Shown: in pieces, positions 22,837 to 28,783 of the stretch | Position numbering within the stretch: the stretch's first letter is position 1 | Layout of the letters: the number at the start of each line of letters is the position of its first letter | NCBI GenBank assembly: GCA_022340485.1 | Contig: JAJDNX010000071.1 | Location: forward strand, 1 to 38,528 | Direction of reading: 5' to 3' | Source of the DNA: Gammaproteobacteria bacterium | Lineage (GTDB): Bacteria; Pseudomonadota; Gammaproteobacteria; UBA9214 | DNA length: 38,528 nt | Notes under the pieces: generated by a model | What the model was told of the DNA's origin: nothing | The model's input: only the letters and a program-made list of their open reading frames with translations | Database searches by the model: none | Position numbers and translations under genes: made by a program

Positions 22837-22922
22837 ACAGGTGTGATACCATCAGCTGAACAACTGTGGCGTGCTCGGAGTCCGGCGTGGGGAGGTATTG
22901 CTGCATATGCAGGAGGCAGGAT

Positions 22923-23420
22923 TTGTCAGCCGTAGGTTCGCCGGGTAGCGTGGAGAGACGTGCACTCCTATTTGTGGTGCTATGTGTCGCACCGCTTGCA
23001 GCATTTGCTAAATGGTCTGTCGTTGACAAGGTAACAGGAGTGAAGGGATGCAACCTTCGGACGGAAGAGATCAGCCTCTTTGATGGCTACCAGGAGACCC
23101 GGCTGCGGCTGAGTGTGGCCAATGGGGAGTTGCGGGTAAAGACAGAATCGAATATCGACGTCAGTTTCAACGATGTGGGTCTGGCGGTAGATGGCAAGGA
23201 GTTTATCGCCGCAGATGGTGTTGCCGATGAGAAGCAGGTGCTGTTTCAATCCAGTGCGGACGCCATCATTGAACAGTTTATTCGTGGCCGTTCGGTTACA
23301 GTATACCTGCGCTTCTGGCCCAGTTATCCGGCTACGCAGCGCTACCAGGCCCGTTTCAGCCTGATTGGATTCACACGGGCATACAACGACTACAAGATAT
23401 GCAGCGACAAGCTGTCATGA
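22923..23420 (+). CDS. Secreted protein of unknown function, upstream of the heme sensor
   Basis: I do not recognise the family. The track starts at GTG 22866, but TTG 22923 has a perfect AGGAGG six bases upstream, giving 165 residues. The N-terminus is a signal peptide: MSAVGSPGSVERR, hydrophobic ALLFVVLCVAPLA, and likely cleavage after AFA. The mature part (about 137 residues) looks like a compact beta-rich domain with one cysteine near each end (VKGCNL and YKICSD), perhaps disulfide-linked, and no membrane segment. It ends 31 bp before a membrane c-heme sensor, so it may be a periplasmic partner of that receptor; this is inference from position alone. Confidence 0.75.
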   Translation: MSAVGSPGSVERRALLFVVLCVAPLAAFAKWSVVDKVTGVKGCNLRTEEISLFDGYQETRLRLSVANGELRVKTESNIDVSFNDVGLAVDGKEFIAADGVADEKQVLFQSSADAIIEQFIRGRSVTVYLRFWPSYPATQRYQARFSLIGFTRAYNDYKICSDKLS

Positions 23421-23451
23421 CAGTGTGGGATTTGCTGCCAGAGGAGTAACG

Positions 23452-24324
23452 ATGCGACTGACCACCAAGTTCAATCTCGTACTGTTTGCGGTGTTTTCAC
23501 TGGGCCTGGTGATTGCCGGTTATATTTCCTACACGATGCTGCAAAAACACGCACGTGAGGAAGTACTCAACCATGCCGGCATGATGATGGAAGCAGCCAT
23601 GGCGATTCGCGGTTACACGGTCAAGGAGATTCGGCCGCTGCTGACACTGCAGATGAAGCGCGAATTTCTGCCGCAGTCGGTTCCATCCTACGCCGCCACC
23701 CAGAACTTCAGGGCGGTCCGGGAGATGTACCCTGAATATACCTACAAGGAAGCGGCACTGAATCCTACCAATCCCAATGATCGTGCCACCGACTGGGAGA
23801 CCGATATCATCCAGTTATTCCGGAACGACAGTGACACCCTGGAGATCAATGGCGAGCGCGATACCCCGTTGGGGAAATCACTCTACTATGCACGCCCGAT
23901 AAAGATCGCCAACAAGAACTGCCTGACCTGTCACAGTACTGCCGATGCCGCGCCCGAAACCATGATCAAGCTGTATGGCGACTCAAACGGTTTCGGCTGG
24001 CAGCTGGATGAGGTTGTCGGCAGCCAGATCGTCAGCGTGCCGCTGTCGCTGCCCCTGGCAAAGGCGCAGAAGGAATTCCTGATTTTCATGGCCTCACTGA
24101 TTGCGATATTTGTGGTGATATTCATCGTCATCAACCTCATGCTGGGCCAGATTGTGGTGAAACGGGTGAGGGCCATGGCACAGGTGGCGGATGACATCAG
24201 CACCGGACATATGGAGGTGCCGGAATTCATGGTGAATGGCAAGGACGAGATCGCAGACCTGAGCCGCTCTTTCAACCGCATGCGCCTCAGCCTGGAAAAG
24301 GCCATGAAGATGCTGGGAGAATGA
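23452..24324 (+). CDS. Membrane heme c sensor: DUF3365 (Tll0287-like) plus HAMP
   Basis: The track start (23365) overlaps the preceding gene. ATG 23452 has GAGGAG just upstream and gives 290 residues. A first membrane helix (about 9-30) is followed by a periplasmic DUF3365 domain with one c-type heme site, CLTCH at 157-161, in the context ARPIKIANKNCLTCHSTADAAPETMIKLYG. A second helix (about 209-231) leads into a HAMP domain (232-283; VRAMAQVADDISTGHMEVPE, then KDEIADLSRSFNRMRLSLE). It stops there: no kinase, methyl-accepting or cyclase output domain is attached. The cyclase gene begins 3 bp later, so the pair looks like one receptor split into two chains. Redox, NO or other heme-ligand sensing is inferred. 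Confidence 0.9.
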   Translation: MRLTTKFNLVLFAVFSLGLVIAGYISYTMLQKHAREEVLNHAGMMMEAAMAIRGYTVKEIRPLLTLQMKREFLPQSVPSYAATQNFRAVREMYPEYTYKEAALNPTNPNDRATDWETDIIQLFRNDSDTLEINGERDTPLGKSLYYARPIKIANKNCLTCHSTADAAPETMIKLYGDSNGFGWQLDEVVGSQIVSVPLSLPLAKAQKEFLIFMASLIAIFVVIFIVINLMLGQIVVKRVRAMAQVADDISTGHMEVPEFMVNGKDEIADLSRSFNRMRLSLEKAMKMLGE

Positions 24325-24327
24325 AGG

Positions 24328-25158
24328 ATGTCTGAAGACCAGCGCAATACCGAGATGCCGCGCAACAATCGCACCTGGCTGTGCACGGTGCTGTTCATGG
24401 ATATCGTAGGATATTCCACGCATTCCGTGGATCACCAGATGATGGTCAAGCAGAGTTTCAGCACACTGGTGAGTGATGCGCTGCGCAGCCTTCCCGCCGA
24501 TGACTGTATCAAGCTCGATACGGGGGACGGTCTTGCCATCTGTTACCTGGGGGCTCCCGAGGATGTACTCTATGTTGCCGTTGGCCTGCGTGACGCCTTT
24601 GTTGATGTCAAGGAAATCTGCGGGAACTGCTACAGCGTGCGCATGGGTATCAACCTTGGCCCGGTCAAGATACTTGAAGACATCAACGGCCAGCGTAACA
24701 CCATCGGTGATGGCATCAATGCCGCCCAGCGCATTATGAGCTTCGCTCAACCCAATCAACTGCTGGTATCACGTGCCTACTATGACGTGATCAGTTGCCT
24801 GTCGGAGGAGAACCCGAAGATGTTTTCCTACATCGGTGTACATAATGACAAGCACGTGCGCCAGTATGATGTCTATGAGGTTCTGGCACACCAGGACCGT
24901 GAACATGATGGTCTCATTGTCAGTACTGAGGAGTCCGATGAGGCAATGCCACAGCACAGCAGCGACCTGGATGAACGAATTGTGAAGATTGTGCAGGAAC
25001 AGCTGGCCCTGATCATCGGGCCCATGGCCCGTGTCGTGGTAAAGCGCGCCATGCGCAAAAGCGTCAGCCTCGACCAGCTCTACCAGCTGCTTGCCGAGGA
25101 GATCCCGACACCGCAGGAGCGGCAGCGCTTCCTGTCGGGCAAGGACCGGTTGCACTGA
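24328..25158 (+). CDS. Class III adenylate/guanylate cyclase, soluble
   Basis: The catalytic domain spans about residues 15-195. Metal-binding D25 is in LFMDIVGYS and D67 in KLDTGDGLA. K62 is in the position that reads the purine. RMGINLGPV follows, then NTIGDGINAAQRI, with N131 and R135 as transition-state residues. The substrate-recognition aspartate usual before the GxxxN motif reads asparagine, as in some bacterial cyclases, so ATP versus GTP preference is uncertain. The C-terminal 80 residues form a helical segment (VQEQLALIIGPMARVVVKRAMRK, then LDQLYQLLAEEI), a domain also seen attached to bacterial signalling kinases. There is no membrane helix. The ATG lies 3 bp after the HAMP protein with AAGG as ribosome binding site. 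Confidence 0.92.
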   Translation: MSEDQRNTEMPRNNRTWLCTVLFMDIVGYSTHSVDHQMMVKQSFSTLVSDALRSLPADDCIKLDTGDGLAICYLGAPEDVLYVAVGLRDAFVDVKEICGNCYSVRMGINLGPVKILEDINGQRNTIGDGINAAQRIMSFAQPNQLLVSRAYYDVISCLSEENPKMFSYIGVHNDKHVRQYDVYEVLAHQDREHDGLIVSTEESDEAMPQHSSDLDERIVKIVQEQLALIIGPMARVVVKRAMRKSVSLDQLYQLLAEEIPTPQERQRFLSGKDRLH

Positions 25159-25288: not shown

Positions 25289-26494
25289 CTACTCGTAGCG
25301 CAGTGCTTCTATCGGATCCTGGCGTGCGGCCTTGCGCGCGGGGAAAAAACCGAAGATCACACCGACTGCGGCGGAAAACAGGAAAGCCAGCAGCATGATG
25401 CCCGGGTCGAGCAGCACCGGCATCCCCATCATGGCAGCGAGGCCATAGGTTGTGGCCACTGCCAGCAGGATGCCGAGTAGGCCACCGAACGACGAAAGCA
25501 CGACGGCCTCGACCAGGAACTGCAACAGCACCTCGCGTTCCAGGGCGCCGATCGCCAGGCGTGTACCGATCTCGCGCGTGCGCTCCGTGACCGAGACCAG
25601 CATGATGTTCATAATGCCGATACCACCGACCAGCAGGCTGACCGCGGCCACGGCGCCGAGCAGGGTGGTGAGCACCCGGGTGGTGCCGGTCAACGCCTCG
25701 GCAATCTCCTTCATGTCGCGCACGTTGAAATCGTCATCCTCGTTTGCCGTGATGCGCCGGCGTTCACGCATCAGCAACTCGATGTCGCGTTGTACCTTCT
25801 TGGTGGAGACACCTTCGCGGGCCGAGACATAGATCATCTGCACGTCCATGTTGCCGGCCACGCGCCGCCAGAAGGTGCGCAGCGGGATCACCACCAGGTC
25901 GTCCTGGTCGCGCCCGCCGGCCGACTGCCCCTTGGAGGTCAGTACGCCGATCACCTGGCAGGATAACTTGTTGAGGCGGAGCTTCTCGCCAATTGCCTCC
26001 TGGTTGCCGAACAGTTCCTTGCGCACTGCCTCGCCGAGGATGCAGACAGCCGCGCCGGCGCGCAGCTCACTCGGGCTGAACTCGCGCCCCTTCGCCAGGC
26101 TCCAGTTGCCCACCGGGAAGTACTCGTTGTCGCTACCGGTCACTGTGGTGGACCAGTTGCGGTTGCCGTAGATGACCGTTACGGGCTGCGAGGCACCAGG
26201 TGCCACGGCGGCGACGCCACCCACCTCGCGGCCAATGGCCTCTGCATCCTCGCGGTCGAATGGTTCGGCCTCGGAGCGTTGTCCGTACCCGAGGCGCTGG
26301 CCGGTGCGGACGATCAGCAGGTTGCTGCCAAGACTGGCGATCTGTTCGCCGACCTGGGCGGTTGCGCTGGTGCCCAGGTTGACCATCACGATCACCGAGG
26401 CCACGCCGATGACGATGCCCAGCATGGTCAGCGCCGAGCGCATCAGGTTGCGACGAATCTCGCGCAAGGCAAGCAGCAGGGCGTTCCACAGCAT
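25289..26494 (-). CDS. ABC exporter permease, MacB-like
   Basis: The 401-residue permease has an N-terminal helix (NLMRSALTMLGIVIGVASVIVMVNLG) and a large periplasmic MacB_PCD domain. Three C-terminal helices of the FtsX type follow (GAVAAVSLLVGGIGIMNIMLVSVTERTREIGTRLAIGA, then VVLSSFGGLLGILLAVATTYGLA and LLAFLFSAAVGVIFGFFPARKAARQDPIEALRYE). The ending is a family signature. Unlike E. coli MacB, the ATPase is a separate gene. The start overlaps the ATPase stop by one base (TGATG). Substrates could be macrolides, peptides or lipoprotein-like compounds; nothing in the sequence decides. Confidence 0.93.
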   Translation of the reverse strand: MLWNALLLALREIRRNLMRSALTMLGIVIGVASVIVMVNLGTSATAQVGEQIASLGSNLLIVRTGQRLGYGQRSEAEPFDREDAEAIGREVGGVAAVAPGASQPVTVIYGNRNWSTTVTGSDNEYFPVGNWSLAKGREFSPSELRAGAAVCILGEAVRKELFGNQEAIGEKLRLNKLSCQVIGVLTSKGQSAGGRDQDDLVVIPLRTFWRRVAGNMDVQMIYVSAREGVSTKKVQRDIELLMRERRRITANEDDDFNVRDMKEIAEALTGTTRVLTTLLGAVAAVSLLVGGIGIMNIMLVSVTERTREIGTRLAIGALEREVLLQFLVEAVVLSSFGGLLGILLAVATTYGLAAMMGMPVLLDPGIMLLAFLFSAAVGVIFGFFPARKAARQDPIEALRYE

Positions 26495-27204
26495 CAGCCG
26501 GCTGCCCCGTTCTCGACTTGTCCGTCGAGGAAGTGCACTACCTGGCGCGCGTAGGCGGCCATTTCTGCCTCGTGGGTGACCATGACAATGGTGATGCCCT
26601 GCTCGGCGTTAAAGCGCGACAGCAATTCCATGATCTCCAGGCTGCGTGCGGTATCCAGGTTGCCGGTGGGCTCGTCGGCGAGCAGTACAGCCGGTGCGGT
26701 GACAATGGCCCTGGCAATGGCGACACGCTGTTGCTGGCCGCCAGAGAGTTCGGCGGGAGAGTGCGACTCCCAGCCGGACAGCCCAACCACCGCCAGGGCG
26801 CTGCGGGCGCGTTCGTGGCGCTTTGCTGCCGGGATGCCACGATAGATCAGTGGTAGCTCGACGTTCTCCAGCGCCGAGGTGCGCGCCAGCAGGTTGAAGC
26901 CCTGGAACACGAACCCGATGTAGTTGCGCCGCAGCAGGGCGCGCTGGTTGCGGTCCAGGGCACCCACCTCGATGCCCTCGAAACGGTAACTGCCGTCGCT
27001 GGGCGTATCCAGGCAGCCAAGGATGTTCATGCATGTGGACTTGCCGGAGCCGCTCGGACCCATCATCGCCACGAAGGCGCCTGGCTGGATATCGAGGTCG
27101 ATACCGCGCAGGGCGTGCATGGCCGCCCGCCCCTGACCGTAGACCTTGGTGACACCACGGAGCGCAATCAGCGGCGTGGTAGTTGCCGCGGCTTGTGTGT
27201 TCAC
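26494..27204 (-). CDS. ABC exporter ATP-binding protein, MacB/LolD-like
   Basis: The 236-residue ATPase has Walker A GPSGSGKST, the Q-loop VFQGFNLLARTSALENVELPLIYRG, signature LSGGQQQRVAIARAI, and Walker B LLADEPTGNLD, followed by the H-loop TH. The motif set (ENVELPL, PTGNLD) is typical of the MacB/LolD/FtsE subfamily. It overlaps the adaptor gene by 4 bp upstream and the permease by 1 bp downstream, so the three are one translationally coupled operon driving tripartite export across both membranes. No TolC-like outer membrane gene is in the window. Confidence 0.95.
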   Translation of the reverse strand: MNTQAAATTTPLIALRGVTKVYGQGRAAMHALRGIDLDIQPGAFVAMMGPSGSGKSTCMNILGCLDTPSDGSYRFEGIEVGALDRNQRALLRRNYIGFVFQGFNLLARTSALENVELPLIYRGIPAAKRHERARSALAVVGLSGWESHSPAELSGGQQQRVAIARAIVTAPAVLLADEPTGNLDTARSLEIMELLSRFNAEQGITIVMVTHEAEMAAYARQVVHFLDGQVENGAAG

Positions 27205-28472
27205 GGTTTCACGGTGACTGCATCGACCACGACCCGTTGTCCGGGCCGGAGATCCCCCGACTGCAGCGCGGTGACCTTGCCGTCGCTGGCACCGGTTTTC
27301 ACCGCGACGGCTTCAGTCGCGCCGTCGCGCAATATCCAGACCTGCTGGTCGCCGTTGCGCGCTGCATTGCTGCGTCGCTGACCCATTGGCGGCCTGGGGA
27401 ACAGCATGCCGAAGACGCCGCCACCACGAGTTTGTTCGGCCTCGGTCTGTGGTGGTGTGAACCGCAGGGCCGCATTTGGAATCAGCACTACGTTTTGCAG
27501 CTGCTGCACGGTAATGACTGCAGTCGCGGTCATCCCCGGGCGCAGTGACAGATCCGAATTATCCACGGCAAGCAGGGTCTCGTAGGTGACCACGCCATCG
27601 ATGGTCCGCGGTGCGAAGCGCACCTGGGTGATGCGTGCAGGGAAATTGCGTTCTGGCCAGGCGTCCACGGTGAACACTGCAGACTGGCCCACGGCGATCT
27701 TGCCGACGTCGGCCTCGTCAACGGCCACATGCAATTCCATCTGCGACAGGTCCTCGGCCAGGGTGAAGAGGATGGGTGCCTGCAGGGATGCCGCCACGGT
27801 CTGGCCCGGCTCGATCTGGCGCAGCAGCACCAGCCCGTCGATAGGGGAGTGGATCTCTGCCTTGGCCAGTTCCGTTTCCTTGCCGTCCAGGGTGGCACGC
27901 GCCACGGCCACCTGCGCCCGCGCGCTGGCCTCGGCGGCCTTTGCACGGGTATACGCGGCACGGGCAGCATCAAGATCCCCGACGGTGCAGAGCTGGCGTT
28001 CAGCAAGCTTCTCGCAGCGTTCAAGACTCAGCCGCGTCTCCTGTACGGTGGCTTGTGCCTCCTTGACCTTGGCCTCGTTGGATTGCAGCGAGGCACGGGA
28101 TTCGAGCACCTGCGCCTGCAGACGGTCGGTATCCAGGCGAGCCAGCAACTGGCCGCGTTGTACCTTGTCATTGAAGTCCACCGCCACTGTCTCGATGGTG
28201 CCGGACAGCTCGCTACCCACATCCACCTGGTTCACCGGCTCCAGCGCCCCGGTGGCGGTGACCGTCACGGTGAGATCGCCCTGCTGCACCTCTGCCGTTT
28301 CATAGCGCAGCGCTGATTCCTCGCCGGGCATCAGCAGCAGGGTGCCACCCGCGAGCAGCAATACAGCCAGTGTCGCGAGTGCCCAGCGCAAGCGGCGCTG
28401 CCGGGGTGAGTGCCGGCCGGCGTTCAGGACTGCATGGATTTCTTCGCCGGAGGGTGGTCCGTTTCGGGGCAT
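27201..28472 (-). CDS. Periplasmic adaptor (membrane fusion) protein, MacA-like
   Basis: The track ORF begins at 28667, but ATG 28472 (MPRNGPPSGEEIHAVLN) is the likely start, giving 423 residues. A basic cytoplasmic stretch (RHSPRQRRLRW) precedes one membrane helix (ALATLAVLLLAGGTLLL). The adaptor architecture follows: a first lipoyl half (VTATGALEPVNQVDVGSELSGTIETVAVDFNDKVQRGQLLARLD), a long alpha-hairpin (about 100 residues rich in A, E, Q and R), a second lipoyl half (IHSPIDGLVLLRQIEPGQTV) and beta-barrel domains. GMTATAVITV and a C-terminal HlyD-like end complete it. It links the MacB-like ABC pair to an outer membrane channel. Confidence 0.92.
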   Translation of the reverse strand: MPRNGPPSGEEIHAVLNAGRHSPRQRRLRWALATLAVLLLAGGTLLLMPGEESALRYETAEVQQGDLTVTVTATGALEPVNQVDVGSELSGTIETVAVDFNDKVQRGQLLARLDTDRLQAQVLESRASLQSNEAKVKEAQATVQETRLSLERCEKLAERQLCTVGDLDAARAAYTRAKAAEASARAQVAVARATLDGKETELAKAEIHSPIDGLVLLRQIEPGQTVAASLQAPILFTLAEDLSQMELHVAVDEADVGKIAVGQSAVFTVDAWPERNFPARITQVRFAPRTIDGVVTYETLLAVDNSDLSLRPGMTATAVITVQQLQNVVLIPNAALRFTPPQTEAEQTRGGGVFGMLFPRPPMGQRRSNAARNGDQQVWILRDGATEAVAVKTGASDGKVTALQSGDLRPGQRVVVDAVTVKP

Positions 28473-28783
28473 TCCTGTGTGACTCGCGTTCAGCGGAATA
28501 ATTCCGGGGGAAGGGGATGAGGAGGATAACGCAGAAGTCTCGAGTTTACACGGAGGATGGGTGTAGTTGGTACCGGTACGGCTTAGCAAGCCATGCTTTT
28601 GTACGGGGCTGGCCCACCAGTCCGTCTGAAGCTGCTGTAGGTTCACTGGAGTCGCTACAGAGACCACCGGGAGCTGTGGCTTTTCACGGCACGATTCAGT
28701 GGTGATCCGGGGCTTTCCCCCTCATCCCGGCACGGTTATGCTACTTGCCATGGCCAACAGGCAAGCTATCCGGAGGTATGTGA
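28473..28783. other. 311-bp divergent intergenic region, adaptor gene / CBS gene
   Basis: This gap separates the start of the MacA-like adaptor (minus) from the CBS protein (plus) and must hold both promoters, but I see no convincing -35/-10 pair for either. It contains a short dyad GGAATAATTCC near the adaptor side and an inverted repeat CTTGCC-N10-GGCAAG (28744-28765) just before the CBS ribosome binding site. The small ORFs listed here look like chance frames. Confidence 0.5.

Follow-up and report, generated by a model that had tools for sequence, protein, structure and literature searches.

The closest described precedent for the locus reported here is the Af1503/Af1502 pair of Archaeoglobus fulgidus. 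Af1503-like receptors have a HAMP domain as their sole cytosolic part and lack an effector, and the gene of Af1503 is translationally coupled to that of Af1502, a stand-alone domain in which helices 1 and 2 flank an LGPx(x)A motif and whose structure (PDB 5A1Q) defined STAC (PMC4834066). A published account calls the role of STAC unknown (PMC9100948). In the SLC5-STAC histidine kinases CbrA, CrbS and RpuS, it has a membrane signal source on one side and the kinase on the other, and has been proposed to act as a mechanical coupling element (PMC13022988, PMC9100948). A second precedent is found in the DUF3365 family, which a 2026 preprint renames sCache_heme (PMC12889525). In that study, a HAMP-bearing member from P. 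azotoformans (Target 2), which has no axial Cys, released NO slowly (koff 6e-4 per s) and formed no stable oxy complex, and stand-alone members with Cys/His ligation looked redox-type (PMC12889525).

We analyzed a window of 38,528 nucleotides, positions 1 to 38,528 of contig JAJDNX010000071.1 (assembly GCA_022340485.1), from a gammaproteobacterium of the UBA9214 lineage. It contains a cassette of three genes, here called A, B and C, with the following features.

22911..22916, + strand: AGGAGG ribosome binding site of gene A (seen in the sequence)
22923..23420, + strand: gene A, exported protein, TTG start
about 22923-23009, + strand: signal peptide of gene A
23010-23417, + strand: mature IalB/MotY_N-like domain of gene A (fold match)
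23452..24324, + strand: gene B, HAMP-terminal heme-c Cache receptor, 290 aa
23542..24042, + strand: Tll0287-like/sCache_heme periplasmic domain of B, residues 31-197 (Pfam PF11845, E 5e-39)
23920..23934, + strand: heme-c attachment site CLTCH of B, residues 157-161
24073..24141, + strand: second transmembrane helix of B, approximate (hydrophobic stretch in the translation)
24142..24297, + strand: HAMP domain of B, residues 231-282, the sole cytosolic domain (Pfam HAMP, E 6e-10)
24328..25158, + strand: gene C, class III cyclase with a C-terminal STAC-like domain, 276 aa
24370..24888, + strand: class III cyclase domain of C (Pfam Guanylate_cyc, E 3.5e-6)
24400-24402, + strand: metal-binding Asp D25 of C
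24526-24528, + strand: metal-binding Asp D67 of C
24940..25155, + strand: STAC-like putative receiver domain of C, four helices, IGPMA motif (AlphaFold2, Foldseek and profile)
25018-25029, + strand: GPMA of the motif in the putative receiver domain of C

Genes A and B are separated by 31 bp, and C starts 3 nt past the TGA of B, with its ribosome-binding region inside the end of B, whose stop codon lies 8 residues past the HAMP domain. The original prediction had described B as a DUF3365 protein with one CxxCH site that ends after its HAMP domain and is followed three bases later by a class III cyclase, and both statements were borne out. Its secreted protein A was also recovered with the signal peptide, the AGGAGG site and the 31-bp spacing; the label of an unrecognised family no longer applies, given a fold match to IalB. 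In the case of C, which had been described as a plain soluble cyclase, the cyclase domain stood but an additional four-helix domain was found at residues ~205-276. Single-chain HAMP class III adenylate cyclases carry a sensor, a HAMP domain and a cyclase in that order; the cassette splits the same order over two chains, and the distal end of its cyclase bears the putative receiver domain as an addition.

As in Af1503/Af1502, the HAMP domain is the only cytosolic domain of the receptor, and the receptor gene is coupled to that of a protein with a four-helix domain and a GPx(x)A motif; moreover, the two archaeal proteins are the best PDB matches of the B HAMP domain and the C terminal domain, respectively. 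Thus, the earlier statement that no named system has this three-gene layout requires qualification, since Af1503/Af1502-STAC is a named precedent for pairing a HAMP-terminal receptor with a separate partner chain (PMC4834066). In contrast to that pair, the system in the window is bacterial and has a heme-c sensor, and the STAC-like domain, which stands alone in Af1502, is fused to a kinase or a cyclase in this family, which would give the pair an output. The SLC5-STAC kinases differ in being single chains with a transporter as input and a histidine kinase as output. In the open-access literature we found no paper on STAC-type domains joined to Ser/Thr kinases or cyclases, nor any that names partners for HAMP-only heme receptors.

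The three genes occur together in four further genomes (G001, G010, G012 and G020), in agreement with the expectation that they would be neighbors in relatives. None of the eight tested flanking genes of the window was found near the cassette in relatives, within flanks of up to 6 kb. Because the cassette is kept while the flanking genes differ, the linkage of A, B and C is more than chance. In the window, cytochrome oxidase assembly genes (CtaB and SCO-like, by Pfam) adjoin the cassette; a conserved tie to these genes was considered and rejected, as that neighborhood is not conserved in relatives. Directly downstream, at 25289-28667, lie convergent MacAB-type efflux genes encoding a permease, an ATPase and a membrane fusion protein, and these are likewise not conserved beside the cassette in relatives.

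The CxxCH site, which holds the only Cys residues of B, is present in all 108 of the B homologues. With its membrane helices, its HAMP domain and the lack of an axial Cys, B has the sequence characteristics of the NO-sensing subgroup of sCache_heme; it shares the heme-c Cache domain, the two membrane helices and the HAMP domain with the P. azotoformans sensor and, like it, would be expected to have no axial Cys ligand. Its sequence therefore agrees with the HAMP-bearing, NO-binding kind and not with the stand-alone Cys/His kind, and by analogy with the biochemical study the input of B is probably NO (PMC12889525). That study assigns neither a partner nor an output to the HAMP-only form, whereas B has C beside it. 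B would work like Af1503 but is not placed in the Af1503 family, because its sensor is a heme Cache domain rather than a homologous sensor and its host is a gammaproteobacterium rather than an archaeon.

The original prediction had left the input of B as either periplasmic redox state or a heme ligand. A sensor of redox potential or electron flow, coupled to C in the manner proposed below, is an alternative to NO that we regard as doubtful. Heme c sensors can respond to oxidation state, and the stand-alone Tll0287-type proteins do look redox-type (PMC12889525), but the redox-type members have an axial Cys, whereas B has no Cys outside its CxxCH site, and a HAMP-bearing homologue of B binds NO tightly (PMC12889525). 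The cytochrome oxidase assembly genes beside the cassette would also fit a redox sensor; however, as described above, they are not kept in relatives. In addition, the genome of the window has nirS-type genes. By analogy with the preprint, NO is likelier than general redox state as the input.

The genome of the window encodes cytochrome cd1-type (nirS-type) proteins, one cytochrome c assembly gene and nine cNMP-binding proteins. On another contig of this genome (G000:C28:8189-33026), three cytochrome cd1-type genes occur together with two Crp-family genes; this would be a nitrite reductase region that would make NO. We also observed that in a genome of the same genus (G004; L010:1450-2070) the B homologue lacks ~80 residues in frame, including the CxxCH site, but retains its HAMP end, and the cyclase still follows it. 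This receptor is either a heme-less variant or an assembly artefact.

Past the cyclase domain, C has ~70 more residues, including IGPMARVVVKRAMRKSVSLDQLYQLLAEEIPTPQERQRFLSG. Pfam gave no convincing match for any of 92 copies of this terminal domain, and an assignment to DUF8082 was considered and rejected, as no paper in its favor was found and Pfam gave no convincing match. The AlphaFold2 model of the domain (mean pLDDT 82.5) consists of four helices (7-26, 30-40, 44-54 and 58-71), the first two of which flank the GP motif. STAC domains are four-helix units of 60-90 residues, and the domain of C has ~65; the LGPx(x)A motif that separates their first two helices appears in the window as IGPMA, and its GP is invariant across 45 diverse copies of the domain. 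The gene coupling of STAC to a HAMP-terminal receptor is also seen here, as the 3-nt gap in the window and in 99 of 105 relatives. When the model was compared with 350,542 PDB chains by Foldseek, both Af1502 chains (5A1Q) took the top two places with a weak E-value of 0.45 and a probability of 0.95-0.96, and the next matches had a probability of 0.51. Superposition on Af1502 gave a TM-score of 0.6 and an rmsd of 2.9 over 62-64 columns. The initial sequence profile of the domain matched Af1502 weakly (E 0.26), and a profile broadened with copies that lie beside other receptors placed Af1502 first in the PDB with a borderline E-value of 0.04, over KKLLDELKKEIGPIAKIFLNKAMES.

We also compared the domain with the STAC of the SLC5-linked kinase RpuS of Sinorhizobium fredii, which was located via the neighboring symporter gene and identified by its layout, as the record is unannotated. 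No significant similarity between this STAC and the window domain was detected (hhalign P 0.06), and the motif was in register. Two SSF scans of the class for SLC5-STAC kinases listed no CbrA-like long chain. Taken from sequence and model, it is likely that the terminal domain belongs to STAC; we call it STAC-like because motif, fold and gene context agree but the sequence significance is borderline and the RpuS domain was not detected.

To see how B-like receptors are arranged elsewhere, homologues of B were collected by a genome-contig scan, two genome-set scans and from plasmid records, and their neighbors were classified with profiles built for this analysis. After identical receptors had been removed, and with only those HAMP-terminal receptors counted that had at least 1 kb of downstream sequence, 99 of 105 distinct HAMP-terminal heme receptors had a same-strand neighbor carrying the terminal domain of C. 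Among single-chain heme receptors, in which the heme Cache and HAMP domains are followed by their own output, none of 12 had such a neighbor (Fisher p 2e-12, a descriptive value only, as the sequences are related). The six remaining HAMP-terminal receptors had no visible partner. A cyanobacterial HAMP-terminal heme receptor on a plasmid of Rippkaea orientalis (L141:5971-6891) showed no recognisable neighbor with the receiver domain within the stretch examined. With duplicates included, 114 of 124 receptors had a domain neighbor, at a distance of no more than 60 nt in 102 of them. Sorted by the nearest effector, 80 receptors had a domain-bearing kinase, 19 a domain-bearing cyclase, 13 a kinase-cyclase fusion and two another protein. 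In distant relatives, a Ser/Thr kinase that ends in the domain, usually in two copies, takes the place of C. The terminal domain is the mark that the effectors share.

The reverse search, with the domain alone in 274 genomes of the class, gave 25 clusters. All 24 testable clusters adjoin a HAMP-terminal receptor, and the 25th (L191), where a cyclase bears the domain twice, lies at a contig edge. Three loci (L195:250-2061, L196:1477-3150 and L197:1471-3192) have non-heme Cache-HAMP receptors that end after the HAMP domain, each adjoining a protein of ~200 residues that ends in a STAC-like domain. Weak DUF4388 similarity was found in the effectors of L197 and L135, the latter beside a heme receptor. 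From the three non-heme receptors and the variety of effectors it follows that the domain accompanies the HAMP-terminal architecture, and neither heme nor a particular enzyme. In the genome of the window, which is 93% complete, there is one such receptor and one such domain, and they are adjacent; a second copy of the domain was not found there. Four loci have a kinase, A, the receptor and a cyclase in a row (L035:793-5023, L044:3831-7990, L116 and L117), with two receiver domains each in the kinase and the cyclase, suggesting one receptor with two outputs. In a tree of 107 receptors, the cyclase-only label changed at least three times on well-supported branches, and the fused kinase-cyclase form had a single origin. 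The cyclase-only clade of the window is well supported and stands beside loci with kinase and cyclase on moderately supported branches; the lineage of the window may have lost the kinase.

The two-chain receptor of HAMP and cyclase in the original prediction is thus supported by the gene neighborhoods, the shared putative receiver domain, the close spacing of the genes and the one-to-one occurrence in the genome, with the amendment that the usual output of the family is a Ser/Thr kinase. It could be argued that the terminal domain only dimerises or scaffolds the effectors, that the linkage reflects co-expression and that B addresses another protein rather than C directly. Many effectors do have two copies of the domain, the role of STAC has been described as unknown, as mentioned above, and Af1502 is monomeric (PMC4834066), with no HAMP complex reported in the papers examined. 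However, the domain is joined to unrelated N-terminal parts (kinase, cyclase, DUF4388-like and ACT-like), its constant neighbor is a HAMP domain without an output, and single-chain receptors never have it as a neighbor, so that we consider a purely scaffolding role unlikely. We lean instead, with some confidence, towards STAC-like domains being general cytosolic receivers for HAMP-terminal receptors, in split systems whose outputs would be interchangeable (Ser/Thr kinase, nucleotide cyclase, kinase-cyclase or other).

C retains the class III cyclase residues for metal binding (D25 and D67) and for the transition state (N131 and R135). The canonical substrate pair of adenylate cyclases, Lys and Asp/Thr, is replaced by Leu63 and Asn124, so that these positions do not mark C as ATP-specific. 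Equivalents of D25, D67, N131 and R135 occur in all free-standing cyclases examined except those of Myxococcaceae (L056 and L091), and the cyclases examined have Leu, Val or Ile in place of the Lys and Asn in place of the Asp. Judged by these residues, C is likely to be enzymatically active. In L047:6944-8884 and 12 other loci of Zoogloea/Accumulibacter type, a kinase-cyclase fusion precedes two STAC-like domains, and its cyclase part has neither the second metal Asp nor the transition-state Asn. Therefore, the cyclase part is probably regulatory there, a decayed cyclase retained within the kinase. That C itself is a pseudo-cyclase, a regulatory binding protein that makes no cAMP or cGMP, is decidedly unlikely: it does lack the canonical Lys/Asp pair, and these fusions and the Myxococcaceae cyclases have lost the second metal Asp as well as the transition-state Asn, but the free-standing cyclases of the clade to which the window belongs, and most of the other ones, have both metal Asp residues, the Asn and the Arg.

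Members of the gene A family share two near-invariant Cys residues, a WP(T/S)WP-type motif and, close to their start, an invariant Trp. Neither gene A by itself nor the A profile retrieved anything useful from the PDB by sequence. The AlphaFold2 model (pLDDT 93.5) matched IalB best (3dtd, E 1.2e-4, probability 1.00) and MotY more weakly (2zf8, probability 0.96); Pfam MotY_N scored 20.9 bits on A, below the cut-off of 26.3, and the best E-value of Pfam IalB among 39 members of the A family was 0.0034. Of the 15 loci that have a separate cyclase, 13 carry A no more than 400 bp from the receptor, and so do 23 of the 70 kinase-only loci. Burkholderiales have a FecR-like secreted protein instead of A upstream of the receptor (L139:5108-5998 and 12 related loci). 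With A or a FecR-like protein beside the receptor, a secreted partner is thus common, and its kind varies. Our guess is that A is an accessory that modulates B.

Based on these results, we propose that A, B and C probably form a split transmembrane receptor, in which the signal would pass from the HAMP domain of B to the STAC-like domain of C and on to the cyclase, with NO as the most likely input. B would presumably be a dimeric sensor of the inner membrane, with a single covalent heme c in its periplasmic Cache domain. The membrane helices and the HAMP bundle of B would shift when this heme binds a ligand, most likely NO, or changes its state. The STAC-like domain at the C terminus of C would dock on the exposed end of this HAMP domain and thereby switch the cyclase, and the level of the presumed cyclic nucleotide product would change, in whichever direction the regulation may run. 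A would be a periplasmic accessory protein, perhaps modulating B. In relatives, a receiver domain of this kind would connect the same receptor to Ser/Thr kinases.

In Caballeronia, Paraburkholderia, Skermanella, Massilia, Variovorax and Caenimonas, the kinase version is found within or next to clusters for type VI secretion, on several plasmids and chromosomes. Eight such loci (L139, L140, L143, L144, L064, L084, L089 and L093) have the heme receptor and the receiver-domain kinase in or beside clusters with tagF, tssM, tssH and tssB/C, and some type VI-linked kinase loci also have a PP2C phosphatase. PpkA/PppA are threonine phosphorylation pathways of type VI secretion; in the present system the kinase is instead cytosolic and the heme receptor is a protein of its own. 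In the type VI-linked loci, a heme/NO-gated control of secretion is possible. A type VI link was rejected for the window itself: its genome has no VipB, and therefore this setting does not apply to it.

The HAMP domain of Af1503 is a reference structure, yet its receptor has no recognisable effector. If true, the general reading of STAC as a receiver would provide Af1503-type receptors and HAMP-only heme-c NO sensors with the output that they lack. Since the receptor, the STAC-like receiver and an enzyme lie in one operon here, the hand-off from HAMP to STAC can be assayed by enzyme activity. The family would also offer a downstream pathway for periplasmic heme-c NO sensors, which the kinase version would link to type VI secretion clusters in some bacteria. 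There is a fair chance that this system shows a general rule for the Af1503/Af1502 type.
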